Assembly: GCA_945870205.1 (NCBI GenBank) | Contig: CAMBRI010000002.1 | Coordinates: 1-62,792 of the forward strand | Source: Sulfuritalea hydrogenivorans sk43H | Lineage (GTDB): Bacteria; Pseudomonadota; Gammaproteobacteria; Burkholderiales; Rhodocyclaceae | Direction: 5' to 3' | DNA: 62,792 bases | Shown here: positions 11,539 to 57,672 of the stretch, piece after piece | Layout: each line of letters opens with the position of its first letter | Numbering within the stretch: the first letter of the stretch is position 1 | The notes under the pieces: model-generated | What the model was told of the DNA's origin: nothing | Database searches by the model: none | The model's input: the letters and a program-made list of their open reading frames with translations, nothing else | Position numbers and translations under genes: made by a program

Positions 11539-14153
<2,615 letters not shown>

Positions 14154-36123: not shown

Positions 36124-39100
36124 ATGAGTACAGATATCGATACCGGCCCACTGTCCTGGGTCAAAGGGGAAATCGACCTGGCACTGGAGCGTGCCGGGGT
36201 GAGTCTTGCTGCACACGCGACCAGTCCGACCGGCGGCGAACTGAAGAAGGCCCGTGCCGGCATGCACCAGGCGCATGGCGCCCTGGCCATCGTCGGCCTC
36301 GACGGAATCACTGAATTTGCCGATGCCATAGAGCAACTGCTGGCGGCACTCGAAGATGGAAAGGTGCCGGACGTCGAGGCCGCCATCGCCGCGGCACAAA
36401 GCGGGTTTGCCGCACTGCGCGGCTATCTCGACGATCTGATGGCCGGTCACCCCAACCAGCCGCTGAAGCTTTTTGCACCCTACCGCGCAATGACCGTGGC
36501 ACGGGGCCAACTAGCACCGGGGCCGGCCGCCCTATTTTTCCCCGACCTGACACAGCGCCCGCCGAAACGCGAGAAGGATGTCCCGCCGCTGACTCCCGAT
36601 GCGCTGGCAACAAGACTGAAAGCCGCGCGCCTGGGTTTTGAACGCGGCCTGCTGAAGTGGATCAAGAACGATCCCAAGGGAATCGCAGAGATGAAGATCT
36701 CGGTAGCCATGATCGAAATGACTCGCAGTACCCCCGCCGCACGAGCGTACTGGTGGGTCGCGCTTGGCGTGCTGGACGCGCTTGCTGCCGACGGACTGCC
36801 TGACCCAACCCAGGCAAAACTGTTTGCCATGCGCCTTGGCGCCCAGATCAAGAAACTCGTCGAGGGCCACACCGATGTAAGCGAGCAGTTGCTGCGCGAC
36901 GCGCTATATCTTGCGGCCTGCGCCACGGCGGGTAGCCAGGCGCTGGCAATCGTTCGCGCCGCCTACCGGCTGGATGGGATGGTGCCCACGGCGACGCCGT
37001 CCGAGACCGAAAGGCTGCTGCCGCATATTCGCCGTTTGCGCGAATTGCTGGCAACGGCCAAGGACGACTGGAACCACCTTTGTGCAGGTACCGCGGCGGC
37101 ACTGCCGCCCTTTCACGAACGCACAGCAAAGATCGCCGAGGAAGGGGCCGCAACAGGTCAGCCCGACTACGCGCGGTTGACGGCGGCCATTCTCCAGCAG
37201 ACCGATCAGTTGCGCCGCGATCCGACGCGCCACAACGATGTCATGGCACTGGAGATGGCCACGGCACTGCTGCTGGCCGAATCCGCACTGGAAAACTTCC
37301 AGACCCTGGATGCCGACTTCACACACTCGACCGATACCGTGGTCAGTCGTCTTGCCGCGCTCGGTCGCGGCGAAGAGCTCGGCATGATGGAATTGCCGCA
37401 TCTCGACGCTATGTCTCGCCGAGCCCAGGAACGACTCCTTCTGGAATCTGTCGCGCGCGAAATTCGCTCCAATCTCGGCGCCATCGAAACTACTCTGGAC
37501 GCCTACTTCCGCGACAACTCGCGTCAAGCCACCCTGGCCACGATCAAGCAGCCGGTGCGCCAGATTCAGGGCGCTCTGATGGTCCTCGGTCAGGACCGCG
37601 CCAACGCCGTGCTCGGAGAATGCGCACAGGCTGTCGAGCATTTCGCCGAGCCCGGCTTCAAGCCGCAGGCCGGCGATTTCGAAGAAGTGGCCAAGAAGCT
37701 GTCGGCACTGGGCTTTTTTGTCGCGCAGTTGCAGGGAGGTGCGGCCGATATCGACGCCATCCTTGCGCCGCCTCTCGTGGCAAAACCCGTCCGCGAGGAG
37801 CCCGAACCGGCTGAGCCTGTCGCGATGCAGCCCGCGCTGCCTCTGCCAGAAAAACAGTCCATTGGACTTGTAACCAGCATCGGATCGGCAGCCGCCTCAG
37901 CCACGCCGGAGGCCCCGGTGCCCGACATCCTTGCCGAAGAGGGTGAAGCGGCGGCTGACGAAGCCCTACCCGACTTCGAAGTGGAAGGTCTGGAAGCACC
38001 GCCCGAGCCGCCACCGGCTGCGGCGTCCGCAGCGATTGCAACCCCGGCCCCGTCGGCCGAGGCTTCGCGCCTGATGGACGCCAGCGAGGAAGATCTCGAC
38101 GCTGAGTTGCTCGGTATCTTCCTCGAGGAAGCCAACGAAGTCCTCGCCACCATCAACGAGCATCTGCCATTGCTGCATGCCGCGCCCAACGATCAGGCTT
38201 CGCTGGTCACCTTGCGGCGCAGCTACCATACGCTGAAGGGCAGCGGTCGCATGGTGGGACTGACCGACCTGGGCGAGGCCGGCTGGGCAGTGGAGCAGGT
38301 ACTGAATGCCTGGTTGCACGAAACCCGTGCCGCCACACCGGCCCTGCTTGAAATGCTCGACCACGCGGCCGAAATATTCAAGGTGTGGGTCGTGCAGCTC
38401 GAAAATGGCGGCGGCAGCCATTTCGACGATGCCGAATTGATCCGCCGCTGTCAGGCTCTGGGCGGCGCTGACGATGCAGAGGGCGGAACATCGGCAGCGC
38501 CTGCTGCAGCCCCCATCGCTGAGGCGCCTGCTGAAGCTGCACCGCCTGAAGAAGTGCCGCCTGAAGAAGCGCCACCTGAAGAAGCACCGCCTGAAGAAGC
38601 ACCGCCTGAAGAAGCACCGCCTGAAGAAGCACCGCCTGAAGAAGCGCCGCCTGAAGAAGCACCGCCTGAAGAAGCACCGCCTGAAGAAGCACCGCCTGAA
38701 GAAGCACCGCCTGAAGAAGCGCCGCCTGAAGAAGCGCCGCCTGAAGAGCTACCACCGCAGGAGGTCGCAACAGAGATCCGGCCTTCGGCAGACGTCGTAT
38801 CCTTCCCGACGCCTCCGCCCATCCGTGTCGGAGACGTGGAGATTGCCCCCACCCTCTACAATCTTTACCTCGACGAATCCCGCGATTACATTGCCACCCT
38901 GCAGGGCAGTCTCGGCCGGGAAGTTGTGCCGGGAGACGAGGTGATCCGTGCTGCCCACACCACGGCCAGTATTTCAGCGGCTACCGGCTTCATGCCGATT
39001 TCTACCCTGGCGCGCGCCCTGGAGAATGCGCTGGTGCGCATGTCATTGATGCAAGCCGTCCCGACTGACGCCCAACGATTTGTTTTTGCACGCTGCGCCG

Positions 39101-41688
39101 GCGCCCTCGAAGGAATGTTGGGCGCGGTTGCGGAACGTCGCATGCCGGGTGAAGAGTCAGCCCTCACGGCGGAAATCGAGGCCATGCAAGCGGGCGTCGC
39201 ACCATCCCTCGAACATCATGTCGAACCGGACCTGAAGCCAACTCCAGCGCCGGACACTGAAGCTTCTGAGCTTGCTGTACCGGAAGTCACCATCAGCGCG
39301 GCCGATCGTCGCGCGGCACGGATCGAAGACGAAATCGATCCGCAAATCCTGCCGCTCTTCCTTGAAGAGAGCTTGGATCTCATGCGAGAAATCGGTGAGG
39401 CCTTGCGCGAATGGCGGGCGGCACCGACCAGTCCCGAGATCGCGCGCACGCTTCAGCGTGCCCTGCATACGCTCAAAGGTAGCGCCCGAATGGCCGGCGC
39501 CATGGGCTGCGGCGAGTTGTTGCATGCCATGGAAGACCGCGTCGATCAGGCCACACGTATGAAGTCGGTGCAGGCGGCCACCATTGACGGGATGGAAACC
39601 TCCTATGACCGCGCCGCGATGCTGATCGAGTATCTGCGCAATCCAGACGCGGCGCGTCCGGAACAGGAGGAAGCGGAGCCGATTGCCGCGCGGCCCGATG
39701 TCTCTGTCGAATCGCAGCAGCCCGAGCCGCAAACCGAGAGGGAAATCGTCGCCACACCGGCAATGCATGCACCCGCCAAAGCCGAAGCTGCTCATGCTCC
39801 GACCTTCGTTCCCAGCCCGCAGGTACATCTGCGCGTGCGCGCGAATCTGGTTGACCAACTGGTCAATGAAGCCGGCGAGGTTGCCATAGCGCGAGGACGG
39901 ATCGAGGGTGAACTGCTGGCACTGAAAACATCCTTGCTTGAGCTCACGGAAAACGTGATTCGCCTGCGCAAGCAACTGCGCGAAGTCGAAATCCAGGCCG
40001 AATCGCAGATGCAATCCCAGCAAGCTCTTGCCAGCGAGCGCTCGCAGCAGTTCGATCCGCTCGAGTTCGACCGTTTCACGCGCTTCCAGGAAGTGGCGCG
40101 GATGATGGCCGAGAGCGTGAACGACGTCGCCACCGTGCAGCAAAACCTGATGCGCAACCTCGACCAGGCCAATGCGGCCGTGTTCGCGCAAGCGCGTCTC
40201 TCCCGGGAACTGTCACAGCGCCTGATGGGCGTGCGCATGGTCCCGTTTGAAAGCCTCGCCGAGCGCCTGCATCGCGTGGTGCGACAGGCCGCAAAGGATA
40301 CCGGCAAGCGCGCCAACCTGGACATCCGTCACGGCCAGACCGAACTCGACCGTTCGGTGCTGGACAAGATGGCCGGACCGCTCGAGCATATGCTGCGCAA
40401 CAGCGTCGCCCATGGCCTCGAAGATGGTGCCGGGCGTGCGGCGGCCGGCAAGGATCCAATCGGCCAGATCACCCTGTCGCTGGCACAAGAAGGCAACGAA
40501 ATCGTGGTCGCCATCGCCGACGATGGCGCCGGTCTCGATTTCGAACGCATACGCAGCCGCGCCATCGAACACGGTCTGCTCGCACCCGATGCAAATGCCG
40601 ACGAAGCAACCCTTGGGCAACTGGTCCTGCAGGCCGGTTTCTCCACGGCCAAGGAAGTCACGACCGTCGCCGGACGCGGGGTCGGCATGGACGTCGTCAA
40701 GAACGAGACGACCAGCCTCGGCGGGCGCATTGAAATATCGTCGGTCACCGGGCGTGGCGCGACTTTCCGCATCTACCTGCCGCTGACCCTGGCCGTCACT
40801 CAGGCGGTGCTGGTCACTGCCGGCAATCACCGCTACGCCATCCCGTCCTCGATGATCGAGCAGGCCACGGAACATAAACCCGATGCCGCGGTAAAGGTGC
40901 GCGCTACCGGCAGCACCGAGTGGCTGGGAAACCGCTATCCCTACCATTACCTGGCCGAACTGCTGGGCGAGAAAGACGCCATGCCGCCACCGCAGCGGCG
41001 GCACTGGATCCTGCTGATCAAGGGCGGGACCGAACGCGTCGCCCTGGAAGTCGATAGTCTTAGCCGCAATCAGGAAGTCGTGATCAAGGCGGTGGGGCCA
41101 CAGTTGGCCCGCGTACCAGGGCTGGCTGGCGCCACGGTGCTCGGCAATGGCGAGGTCGCACTGATCATCAACCCTGTGGCGCTGGCGGCCCGTGCCGGTC
41201 AGCGCGTGGCCGCACCGGTGCAGGTAACGGGCAGCCCGACAGAGTTGGAAACCGCGGCAGCACTAGAAGCCCCCGCAGAAGCGCCAGTTCCCGCAGTTGC
41301 CCCGACAGCCGCGGCGGCGGCCGCAGTAATGGTGGTCGATGACTCGCTTACGGTGCGCAAGATCAGCGGCCGGCTGCTGGCTCGCCATGGCTATCATGTG
41401 CTGACTGCCAAGGATGGCGTCGACGCACTCGAGCAATTGAGCGATGTAATGCCAGATGTCATGCTGCTGGACATCGAGATGCCGCGCATGGACGGCTTCG
41501 AACTGGCGCGCAACATCCGCGGCGACGCGCGCCTGAAGCATATCCCGATCATCATGATCACGTCACGAACCGCGGACAAGCACCGTCAGCATGCGGCGGA
41601 AATCGGCGTCAATCACTATCTGGGCAAGCCTTACGACGAAGATGACCTGCTGGCCTGCATCCGTGAAAGCCTCGAAAAAAAACCGTAG
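36124..41688 (+). CDS. chpA: Pil-Chp hybrid histidine kinase ChpA/PilL
   Basis: A giant CheA-type kinase of 1854 residues. After helical Hpt-like N-terminal segments comes an Hpt domain with YHTLKGSGRM (His702), then a 14-unit PPEEA linker (807-876). A degenerate Hpt (AAHTTASISAATGF) follows, and another Hpt with LHTLKGSARM (His1115). The catalytic part has LEHMLRNSVAHGLED (N box), ADDGAGLDFERI, GRGVGMDVVKN and GRGATFRIYLP. A CheW-like domain and a C-terminal receiver with Asp1783 in LLDIEMPRMDG complete it. It phosphorylates PilG/PilH to control type IV pili. Confidence 0.94.
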   Translation: MSTDIDTGPLSWVKGEIDLALERAGVSLAAHATSPTGGELKKARAGMHQAHGALAIVGLDGITEFADAIEQLLAALEDGKVPDVEAAIAAAQSGFAALRGYLDDLMAGHPNQPLKLFAPYRAMTVARGQLAPGPAALFFPDLTQRPPKREKDVPPLTPDALATRLKAARLGFERGLLKWIKNDPKGIAEMKISVAMIEMTRSTPAARAYWWVALGVLDALAADGLPDPTQAKLFAMRLGAQIKKLVEGHTDVSEQLLRDALYLAACATAGSQALAIVRAAYRLDGMVPTATPSETERLLPHIRRLRELLATAKDDWNHLCAGTAAALPPFHERTAKIAEEGAATGQPDYARLTAAILQQTDQLRRDPTRHNDVMALEMATALLLAESALENFQTLDADFTHSTDTVVSRLAALGRGEELGMMELPHLDAMSRRAQERLLLESVAREIRSNLGAIETTLDAYFRDNSRQATLATIKQPVRQIQGALMVLGQDRANAVLGECAQAVEHFAEPGFKPQAGDFEEVAKKLSALGFFVAQLQGGAADIDAILAPPLVAKPVREEPEPAEPVAMQPALPLPEKQSIGLVTSIGSAAASATPEAPVPDILAEEGEAAADEALPDFEVEGLEAPPEPPPAAASAAIATPAPSAEASRLMDASEEDLDAELLGIFLEEANEVLATINEHLPLLHAAPNDQASLVTLRRSYHTLKGSGRMVGLTDLGEAGWAVEQVLNAWLHETRAATPALLEMLDHAAEIFKVWVVQLENGGGSHFDDAELIRRCQALGGADDAEGGTSAAPAAAPIAEAPAEAAPPEEVPPEEAPPEEAPPEEAPPEEAPPEEAPPEEAPPEEAPPEEAPPEEAPPEEAPPEEAPPEEAPPEELPPQEVATEIRPSADVVSFPTPPPIRVGDVEIAPTLYNLYLDESRDYIATLQGSLGREVVPGDEVIRAAHTTASISAATGFMPISTLARALENALVRMSLMQAVPTDAQRFVFARCAGALEGMLGAVAERRMPGEESALTAEIEAMQAGVAPSLEHHVEPDLKPTPAPDTEASELAVPEVTISAADRRAARIEDEIDPQILPLFLEESLDLMREIGEALREWRAAPTSPEIARTLQRALHTLKGSARMAGAMGCGELLHAMEDRVDQATRMKSVQAATIDGMETSYDRAAMLIEYLRNPDAARPEQEEAEPIAARPDVSVESQQPEPQTEREIVATPAMHAPAKAEAAHAPTFVPSPQVHLRVRANLVDQLVNEAGEVAIARGRIEGELLALKTSLLELTENVIRLRKQLREVEIQAESQMQSQQALASERSQQFDPLEFDRFTRFQEVARMMAESVNDVATVQQNLMRNLDQANAAVFAQARLSRELSQRLMGVRMVPFESLAERLHRVVRQAAKDTGKRANLDIRHGQTELDRSVLDKMAGPLEHMLRNSVAHGLEDGAGRAAAGKDPIGQITLSLAQEGNEIVVAIADDGAGLDFERIRSRAIEHGLLAPDANADEATLGQLVLQAGFSTAKEVTTVAGRGVGMDVVKNETTSLGGRIEISSVTGRGATFRIYLPLTLAVTQAVLVTAGNHRYAIPSSMIEQATEHKPDAAVKVRATGSTEWLGNRYPYHYLAELLGEKDAMPPPQRRHWILLIKGGTERVALEVDSLSRNQEVVIKAVGPQLARVPGLAGATVLGNGEVALIINPVALAARAGQRVAAPVQVTGSPTELETAAALEAPAEAPVPAVAPTAAAAAAVMVVDDSLTVRKISGRLLARHGYHVLTAKDGVDALEQLSDVMPDVMLLDIEMPRMDGFELARNIRGDARLKHIPIIMITSRTADKHRQHAAEIGVNHYLGKPYDEDDLLACIRESLEKKP
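38542..38766 (+). repeat. 15-bp tandem repeat encoding PPEE(A/V/L) in chpA
   Basis: Fourteen in-frame units (38542-38751), mostly exact copies of CCGCCTGAAGAAGCA with a few third-position changes, followed by a degenerate PPQEV unit. They encode a stiff, acidic, proline-rich linker between Hpt domains. Near-identity of the units points to recent slippage, so copy number may vary between strains. Confidence 0.95.
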
Positions 41689-54626: not shown

Positions 54627-56009
54627 TCAGGGGGCGGGCTCATCGTCCGCGACAACCAGCGAAACGATATCCTCGAATTTCATGCTGGACGAGCGCGGAA
54701 TTTCTGCAACAGGTGTCAATGTCACAGCAAATGGAAAACCCAGCGCCTCGTGAATCGCCGTGACCATGGCACGCTCTTCGTCCGGGAGCAACACGCGCTC
54801 GGCGACGAAACGCGCTTCGACCGCACCTCGCACATGCTGGACGATCTGCAACTGCTGGATCGGCGCTATGCCGGCGTACCGTATTGCGGGCGTGCTCGGC
54901 CAAAACCGTTGGCCATCGGGCAGCACCAGCATGTTGCGGCTGCGGCCGAGGATACGCGTAAGCACCGGCAACCCTCGGCCGCAGCCGCATGGCGGACCCA
55001 CCTCGGCATAGTCGCCAAGCGCATAACGGAGCAACGGCATTGCGAAATTATGCAGCGTGGTAACGACAACGCGCCCGATTGCACCAGGAGGGCACGGTCT
55101 GCCCCGATCATCAAGGATTTCGATTAGAAGGTGCTCCGATTGCAGATGATAATGTTCATGCCCGGGGCATTGCAGCGCAATGTAGCCGACCTCCTCCGCA
55201 CTGTAAACATCGGCCACGCCCACGCCCCAGGCCTCGCGGCACATCGCGCGCAAATCCTGGGGCAGGGTTTCGCCAAAGGTACGCACTTCTCTCAGGCTGG
55301 GGAGCTTGACACCACCCGTGAGCGATAGCCTCGCCAGCTCGCGCAGGTTGGTAGGATGACTGAGCAGGTAATCGGGGTTGTGCTTCTGCAACCACTCCAG
55401 TTGGCGCGCGAGATCCGTGCGGATGTTAAGAACCGCGCTGGGTCCGGTAACAAACAGGGCATCGGTGGCAGGCCCCCAACCGGAATGTTCGCTATCGTCA
55501 ACGCGACTGCGGATCGCGCACAGCTTGCCGGCAAGGTCGCGGCGGTGCCACAAATGGTCGCGTAAGGTCTGCGCTAACCAGAACATAGTGTCGAGCTGGG
55601 TGCCAAACACTCGTACCGGCTCGCCGGTGGAACCCCCGCTCTTGTGTTCAACCAGCTGCCCATGTCCACGCGGTACCGCCTGCGACATCAGCGCCTCACC
55701 GTGTGTCTGAATGTCTCGGCGGGTAAGCAATGGCAGATGCGCGAATGCCGCGGGGTCTATGTCTTCACCCGGGTCAATACCCGTTGCGCTCAATCGGTCG
55801 CGGTAAAAAGGTACAGAATGCGCGACGTGCGCCAACACTTCCCGTAGCTGACGGAATTGTTTAGATTCAAGCTTCGCAAGCGGCCACCACTGGCTTTGCT
55901 CGAATTGGTACTGCAACGCGAGGAGCTCCGCGCCATTGGTTGAAGGGATGCCAGGCCAGTTGACGCCTGCAATCGCACTTTTCAGTTCGTAGTCGGCTAC
56001 CATCTCCAT
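54627..56009 (-). CDS. PaaK-like adenylate-forming enzyme
   Basis: A protein of 460 residues of the phenylacetate-CoA ligase/CapK group. The AMP-binding P-loop is visible in HKSGGSTGEPVRVFG. Further motifs are VRTFGETLPQDLRAM, DVYSAEEVGYIALQC and PLLRYALGDYAEVGP, and the C-terminal lid begins LTRILGRSRNMLVLPDG. The cysteines in CGCGRGLP are a family feature. It should activate a carboxylic acid with ATP. There is no paa cluster here and the sequence resembles the polysaccharide-linked subgroup, so the acid is unknown. A remnant of a related gene abuts its 5' end in the opposite direction. Confidence 0.85.
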   Translation of the reverse strand: MEMVADYELKSAIAGVNWPGIPSTNGAELLALQYQFEQSQWWPLAKLESKQFRQLREVLAHVAHSVPFYRDRLSATGIDPGEDIDPAAFAHLPLLTRRDIQTHGEALMSQAVPRGHGQLVEHKSGGSTGEPVRVFGTQLDTMFWLAQTLRDHLWHRRDLAGKLCAIRSRVDDSEHSGWGPATDALFVTGPSAVLNIRTDLARQLEWLQKHNPDYLLSHPTNLRELARLSLTGGVKLPSLREVRTFGETLPQDLRAMCREAWGVGVADVYSAEEVGYIALQCPGHEHYHLQSEHLLIEILDDRGRPCPPGAIGRVVVTTLHNFAMPLLRYALGDYAEVGPPCGCGRGLPVLTRILGRSRNMLVLPDGQRFWPSTPAIRYAGIAPIQQLQIVQHVRGAVEARFVAERVLLPDEERAMVTAIHEALGFPFAVTLTPVAEIPRSSSMKFEDIVSLVVADDEPAP

Positions 56010-56020
56010 GTATCAGGCAG

Positions 56021-56278
56021 TATAGCTTTGCCGCACTCAACCGCGTGATGGGGCGCTACCGCAATCTACTGACGCTGCCCGACGGGTCGCAACCCGGGGC
56101 GCTGCTGGGTTACAAGCAGCATCTTTGAAATATTGCGCCACTGGAACTCATGCAAGTGGTGCAGACCAGACTTGAGGAAATCACCCTTCACCTGGTCATG
56201 CCGCGCATGCTGAACGATTCCGAAATGACCGACTTGACCACCTTCATCCACGGCAACCTTGGCCATCCATTTCGCTGA
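56021..56278 (+). pseudogene. Remnant of a second PaaK-like gene (C-terminal lid)
   Basis: In one frame this stretch reads NRVMGRYRNLLTLPDGS, an in-frame TGA, then NIAPLELMQVVQTRLEEITL and LVMPRML, ending GNLGHPFR. It aligns with the C-terminal part of the intact PaaK-like protein on the other strand (RILGRSRNMLVLPDGQ, IAPIQQLQIVQH, ALGFPF). It lacks the N-terminal 75 percent, has no start and has an internal stop. The sequence differs substantially from the neighbour, so it is an old paralogue or a fragment of another gene. Confidence 0.75.
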
Positions 56279-56291
56279 TCCAGCGTTCGCC

Positions 56292-56327
56292 AAAGCAACA
56301 AGGCCCCTCACGGGGCCTTGTTGCTTT
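56292..56327 (-). terminator. Strong hairpin terminator behind the helicase gene
   Basis: A perfect 16-bp stem (AAAGCAACAAGGCCCC) with a 4-base loop lies 17 bases after the helicase stop in the minus direction. The 3' arm ends GTTGCTTT, giving a modest T-rich tail. It would also stop plus-strand transcription from the PaaK remnant. Confidence 0.75.
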
Positions 56328-56343
56328 GCTGCTGCCTCAGCGT

Positions 56344-57672
56344 TCAGCGATGCCGCTGGCCGCTGTGATGGCTGGCCGGCTTGGCAGCGCCGCCTCCGGA
56401 ACGGGCGGGGCGCGGGGCGCCGCTGCGGCCTCCGTTGCCGCTACGCGTGCGCGCCTGGGCCGGCTTCTGCGCCGGCGGGCGGCCGGCGGCTGGACGCGGC
56501 ACCGAGTTATTGTGTTGCGGCTCGAAGCCGGGCATGACCGACGTCGGGATCTCGCGCTTCAGCAGGCGCTCGATGTCGCGCAACTGGATGCGCTCTTCGC
56601 TGCTGACGAGACTCAAGGCTTCACCGCTGGCGCCGGCACGGCCGGTGCGGCCGATGCGGTGAATGTAGTCCTCGGGCACATTGGGCAGCTCGAAATTCAC
56701 CACGCGCGGCAGCTAAACGATGTCGAGGCCGCGCGCGGCGATGTCGGTCGCCACCAGCGCCGCCAGCTTGCCGGCCTTGAAATCGGCCAGCGCACGGGTA
56801 CGGGCGTTCTGCGACTTGTTGCCGTGCAGGGCGGCGGTACGCACGCCAGATTGCTCCAGCTTCCTGGCCAGTGCGTCGGAGCCATGCTTGGTGCGGCAGA
56901 ACACTAACACCTGATGCCAGCCGTGGGCGGCGAAGAGATGCAACAGCAGATCGCGCTTCTGGTCCTGGTCGACCTTGATCACCGAGTGCGAAACCAACTC
57001 GGCCGGCGCGTTGCGGCGCGCGACTTCGACCATGGCCGGGTCTTTGAGGACGGCATGGGCCAGTTCGCGCACTTCGGCGGCAAAGGTGGCGGAGAACATC
57101 AGATTCTGCCGGACTTTCGGCAACTTCTCGATGATGCGGCGGATGTCGCGGATGAAGCCCATGTCGAACATGCGATCGGCTTCGTCGAGCACCAGGGTCT
57201 GGACTTTCGACAGATCGACGGTGCGCTGGCCGAGGTGGTCGAGCAGGCGACCCGGCGTGGCGACAAGGATGTCGATACCGCGACGCAGGGTCTGGATCTG
57301 CGGGTTGATGCCGACACCGCCGAATACGGCGAGGCTGCGCAAGCCGGTATGGGCGCCATAGACGCGCACGCTTTCCAGCACCTGAGCGGCGAGTTCCCGC
57401 GTCGGCACCAACACCAGCACGCGCGGTGCGGTGTGGGTTACCTTTTGCAGCGGGCTGCCGGTCTGGCCAATGAGCGGGTTGGTGAGGCGTTGCAGGATGG
57501 GCAGCACGAAGGCTGCCGTCTTGCCGGTGCCGGTCTGGGCCAGGGCCTCGAGATCGCGACCGGCGAGGATGTGGGGGATGGCCTGTTGCTGAACAGGAGT
57601 GGGCGTGGTGTAGCCCTGCTCGCCAATGGCGCGCAGGAGCTCGGCCGAAAGGCCGAGTTCGGAGAACTGCAT
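56344..57672 (-). pseudogene. rhlE: RhlE-type DEAD-box RNA helicase interrupted by an in-frame amber codon
   Basis: The frame from the ATG at 57672 ([20 protein letters not shown]) carries all helicase motifs: Q motif, [11 protein letters not shown] (I), PTRELA (Ia), [11 protein letters not shown] (II), FSATF (III), and motif V ([12 protein letters not shown]). A TAG at 56713-56715 then interrupts it where Gln would fit (GLDIV[14 protein letters not shown]). The same frame continues through motif VI ([10 protein letters not shown]) and a basic glycine-rich tail to 56344. No frameshift is seen. One C-to-T change explains it: recent nonsense mutation, sequencing error or suppressed stop. Truncation would remove motif VI and so ATPase activity. 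AGAGG precedes the ATG. Confidence 0.85.

Follow-up and report, generated by a model that had tools for sequence, protein, structure and literature searches.

The window, by which we mean the whole stretch of DNA that was analysed (bases 1-62792 of contig C2), belongs to an environmental-sample draft genome whose 391 contigs add up to 4.44 Mb, with an estimated completeness of 85.25% and an estimated contamination of 3.99%. On its minus strand lies a frame for an rhlE-type DEAD-box RNA helicase that begins with an ATG at 57672, ends at 56344 and is interrupted by a single in-frame TAG. The features of the locus are the following.

56344..57672, minus strand: frame of an rhlE-type DEAD-box RNA helicase, 442 codons with the internal TAG counted, from ATG to its normal stop (translation; Pfam; NCBIfam)
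56716..57672, minus strand: part before the internal stop, 319 codons, motifs I to V (Pfam DEAD 25-203; Helicase_C profile 2-81 of 110)
56716..56718, minus strand: codon 319, GTT (Val), a private change (codon comparison with same-genus orthologues)
56713..56715, minus strand: codon 320, in-frame TAG (sequence; translation; same-genus comparison)
56347..56712, minus strand: part after the internal stop, 122 codons, motif VI (HRIGRTGR) and basic tail (Helicase_C profile 86-110; RhlE profile 314-427)
56291..56328, minus strand: 17-bp perfect hairpin after the end of rhlE, probable terminator (fold -38.1 kcal/mol, z -6.69)

The part before the TAG matches Pfam DEAD with 170.5 bits, and the Helicase_C match is split by the TAG such that profile positions 2-81 are found before it and 86-110 after it (profile length 110). 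RhlE NF007882 is the best NCBIfam match for both pieces, the profile stopping at 311 and resuming at 314, and it should be mentioned that the scores of 444.5 and 107.7 bits for the two pieces are to be read against a cut-off of 743 which the intact relative L016 (583.4 bits) likewise fails to reach. The minus-strand sequence and its translation thus agree with the initial annotation that the TAG is in frame inside an rhlE-like gene, and the domain matches on either side bear out that the gene is split between motifs V and VI, the motifs being named here as we take them to run in this family, and that motif VI and the basic tail are still encoded past the stop. With 122 open and conserved codons after the TAG, and the top rank of this site in a coding-score scan described below, the interrupted yet conserved frame is more than chance. 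The gene resembles the RhlE helicases of Proteobacteria (NF007882; RhlE1/RhlE2, NF053711/NF053710) in that these are the best family on both sides of the TAG and in its basic C-terminal tail, but differs from them by the TAG before motif VI and by Val instead of Asp, a private change, at the codon ahead of the TAG. An uninterrupted frame through motif VI is absent here owing to the TAG at codon 320, and since motif VI is needed for helicase work, the truncated product should, as far as can be predicted from the sequence, be inactive as a helicase.

The hairpin behind the gene is very stable, and its proposed role as a strong terminator is plausible. The assignment is a prediction, and by its symmetry the structure would probably work on either strand. 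It is missing from the output of the promoter and terminator scan, probably because most of its T residues are part of the stem. DNA similarity extends to the hairpin in two of the eight relatives searched (G005 and G025) and ends at or inside the gene in the other six. Just past the hairpin, at about 56040-56278 on the plus strand, there is a short coding-like relic with an in-frame TGA at 56126, which by eye we take to resemble the end of a phenylacetate-CoA-ligase-like protein (GRYRNLLTLPDG...). The relic faces an intact frame at 54627-56009 that has a weak AMP-binding match (28.5 bits, cut-off 29.9), and the 49-residue piece of the relic past the TGA gave no Pfam match. Elsewhere, the plus strand of the window carries a 1854-residue frame at 36124-41688 that by eye resembles a chemotaxis-type hybrid kinase and in which the five residues EEAPP are repeated over a long stretch, and on the minus strand of L183, at about 12516-12678, a short frame ending after about 54 residues resembles the start of a Tn3-family transposase and is probably a transposon remnant.

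Comparison with relatives reveals that the TAG is not the only oddity of the site. Thirty same-genus genomes were compared, and codon 320 could be read in 26 orthologues with 85 to 96% amino-acid identity to the rhlE product, the codon count leaving aside two partial orthologues (G012, G014) and two genomes with more distant matches only (G009, G026). All 26 are open at codon 320, so the TAG is private, and its pattern is found in one of 31 genomes of the genus, namely its own. The codon specifies Ser in 24 of the orthologues (TCG in 14, TCC in 9 and TCA in 1), Gln in one and Ala in one; five more loci from named records read TCG, TCG, TCC, AGC and TCG, and were kept out of the count as some of them probably represent the same genomes. 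The preceding codon 319 is Asp in every one of the 26 (GAT 21, GAC 5) and Val (GTT) here. The notion that the frame is perfect before and after the stop therefore holds for the downstream part, which is open and conserved over its 122 codons, but not for the codon directly upstream. Relative to the commonest form in the relatives, GAT TCG (11/26), the GTT TAG found here takes no fewer than two base changes, at positions three bases from each other, and if the ancestor was GAT TCG both are transversions, whereas an ancestor with TCC (9/26) makes three changes necessary. The suggestion that Gln is plausible at this position and that a CAG turned into TAG fares poorly: we consider such an origin unlikely, because the usual residue of the genus is Ser and because the neighbouring codon is altered too. 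Three other residues of the product (68, 413 and 415) are private or nearly so, and all of these are in variable columns.

Past the stop there is no sign of decay. Over the first 55 post-stop codons the 26 same-genus loci, one of which is covered over 39 codons only, each show 7-22 synonymous and 1-4 amino-acid-changing differences, and because the downstream half has not decayed, the event would by this sequence comparison be either very young or not real. Of the earlier alternatives, very recent loss and base error are hence the ones left standing, with a private stop, no downstream decay and a 391-contig draft that is about 85% complete. What is seen here is the pattern of a recent pseudogene, namely a disabling change, little further decay and a gene that is intact in relatives, but this pattern is equally expected of a sequence error. 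Indeed both recent single-nonsense pseudogenes and draft base errors resemble the present case in having one private stop in an open, conserved frame without decay, and both differ from it in that two adjacent codons, not one, are changed here.

A full-length rhlE search was furthermore made of the order in a set holding one genome per species (300 genomes, its own included). Among the matches listed three other rows have one internal stop, all in one other genus, and when these were fetched with four relatives of that genus the first stop fell at residue 403, 405 or 413, which is past motif VI and the basic tail. They look like natural ends, and the idea that rhlE is interrupted repeatedly within the order was accordingly rejected for the matches listed.

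How unusual the paired change is can be judged from the conserved columns of the alignment. Up to codon 375 there are 319 columns at which 96% or more of the other rows agree, and codon 319 is the sole departure from them, codon 320 itself being outside this set on account of its Gln and Ala. Four further window genes, which we take to encode a PccA-like carboxylase, ThiC, methylmalonyl-CoA mutase and HemL, show 8 departures in 1861 such columns (2/505, 2/452, 1/589 and 3/315, respectively), none of them adjacent and none a stop, and the chance of an independent departure beside the TAG at this background rate is about 1%. We infer that codons 319 and 320 were probably changed jointly, by a single mutational event or a single error. 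The relatives, too, have adjacent departures: they are found in 4 of 26 rhlE rows, as two pairs each common to two genomes and for that reason probably inherited, and in 3/29 rows of PccA, 5/29 of ThiC, 2/29 of HemL and 0/28 of the mutase, for which one row was dropped as a distant match of less than 70% identity. Neighbouring changes are consequently no proof of error by themselves, and the argument from clustering is weakened. A template-switch donor of at least 7 matching bases was not found within about 2 kb of the site, and a second copy or gene conversion was dismissed as a source, there being no other close copy in the genome (next best match 58% identical).

Bacterial amber suppression or TAG recoding would likewise show an in-frame TAG with conserved coding sequence behind it, and a search was made for the means of decoding it. 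ARAGORN read all 34 tRNA genes located in the genome and none carries a CTA anticodon, this set being incomplete (genes for Tyr, Asp and Ile are not among the 34, and the genome is about 85% complete) such that absence is no proof. An amber-tRNA pattern gave 6 matches, none of which is a real tRNA, while the reversed control pattern gave 35. Release factor 1 (prfA) is intact, with 529 bits and no internal stop. TAG terminates 59 of 242 long frames taken from the window and 20 further stretches of 20 kb, a mechanical count that possibly includes the internal TAG of rhlE. The same sequence, 463 kb or roughly a tenth of the genome, was furthermore scanned for stops that have coding-like sequence on both sides in one frame. 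An initial coding-score scan yielded 10 sites with the rhlE TAG ranked first, and most of the other nine vanish once competing frames are compared; a version comparing competing frames gave 28 sites with the rhlE TAG among them, and an over-strict filter gave 6 and lost the rhlE TAG itself. By eye, 26 of the 28 are either usual boundaries between genes or short frames of doubtful standing, the exceptions being the rhlE TAG and the TGA at 56126, and no other conserved gene with a comparable break was seen among them over the 463 kb.

The idea that the TAG is read through to give a full-length helicase, be it by a suppressor tRNA, recoding or programmed read-through, can draw on the conserved downstream part and on the missing portion of the genome, where a suppressor could sit as the unseen Tyr, Asp and Ile genes may, but is in poor agreement with nearly everything else. 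Besides the lack of a CTA tRNA among the 34, the failure of the amber-pattern matches to be tRNAs and the intact prfA, the case departs from known suppression and recoding in that TAG is a widely used terminator and in that, as far as scanned, only this one conserved gene contains it in frame by eye. Moreover the TAG is not common to the relatives but confined to one of 31 genus genomes, and the loss of the invariant Asp of codon 319 is left unexplained, so that the second change argues against read-through as well. The suppressor read-through offered by the initial annotation, and the amber-suppressor tRNA to be looked for in the genome, are accordingly not borne out, and we regard read-through in any of these forms as very improbable. 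Still less probable is a decoding specific to this gene, whereby the full-length and the motif-VI-less helicase would both be made and the decoding tRNA would be encoded in sequence that the draft lacks. Equally improbable is that the gene has become two proteins that act together, the second restarting at GTG 56703 or 56700. These GTG codons do lie no more than 15 bases past the TAG, but they are ordinary Val codons in the relatives and by eye no purine-rich ribosome site precedes them; the cut furthermore falls within the Helicase_C domain, and such an arrangement is absent from all 26 same-genus orthologues that could be read.

We can therefore describe the locus as an ordinary and otherwise intact rhlE-type gene with one private local anomaly that ends translation before motif VI, and the choice is between an error of the draft and a fresh loss. 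An error of the consensus or assembly, stemming from collapsed or low-coverage reads, would have turned GAT TCG, the commonest form of the relatives, into GTT TAG by two base changes arising together, and we put its probability at roughly 0.48. In its favour is the source, a draft of 391 contigs that is about 85% complete and 4% contaminated; against it, the four other genes of the contig are free of an excess of odd changes, and since by eye there is also no second comparable break, the draft is not visibly error-ridden. The alternative, to which we give nearly even odds, is a real and very young inactivation of rhlE, in which one clustered mutation, either fixed or segregating, truncates the helicase before motif VI. 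The low background of odd changes in the region and the adjacent departures occurring in relatives are in agreement with such a loss, and the cell would tolerate it in view of its other DEAD-box helicases; three such genes, on C4, C57 and C119, score strongly against Pfam DEAD, and their products are 57, 41 and 37% identical to the rhlE product, respectively. According to a report on Pseudomonas syringae Lz4W (PMC10783127), disruption of rhlE leaves growth unaffected there, so that one bacterium at least can do without the gene, but the same report describes the helicases of that strain as functionally non-redundant. A fresh loss is likewise at odds with the 26 readable same-genus orthologues being open, meaning that the gene is normally kept, with the second change accompanying the stop in the adjoining codon, and with the absence of a departure at any other well-conserved column up to codon 375. 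It is because two adjacent codons are altered and no other well-conserved column departs that we lean, very slightly, towards an error of the draft.

Literature searches on assembly-error stops in metagenome-assembled genomes and on truncated RhlE without motif VI returned no paper matching all terms. The finding is of little importance beyond annotation. Left unchecked, the anomaly may lead to the genome being recorded as one without an rhlE helicase, or to the TAG being quoted as a hint of recoding. The gain is methodological, in that comparing the neighbouring codons with those of relatives exposes a second change which a single in-frame stop would otherwise hide.
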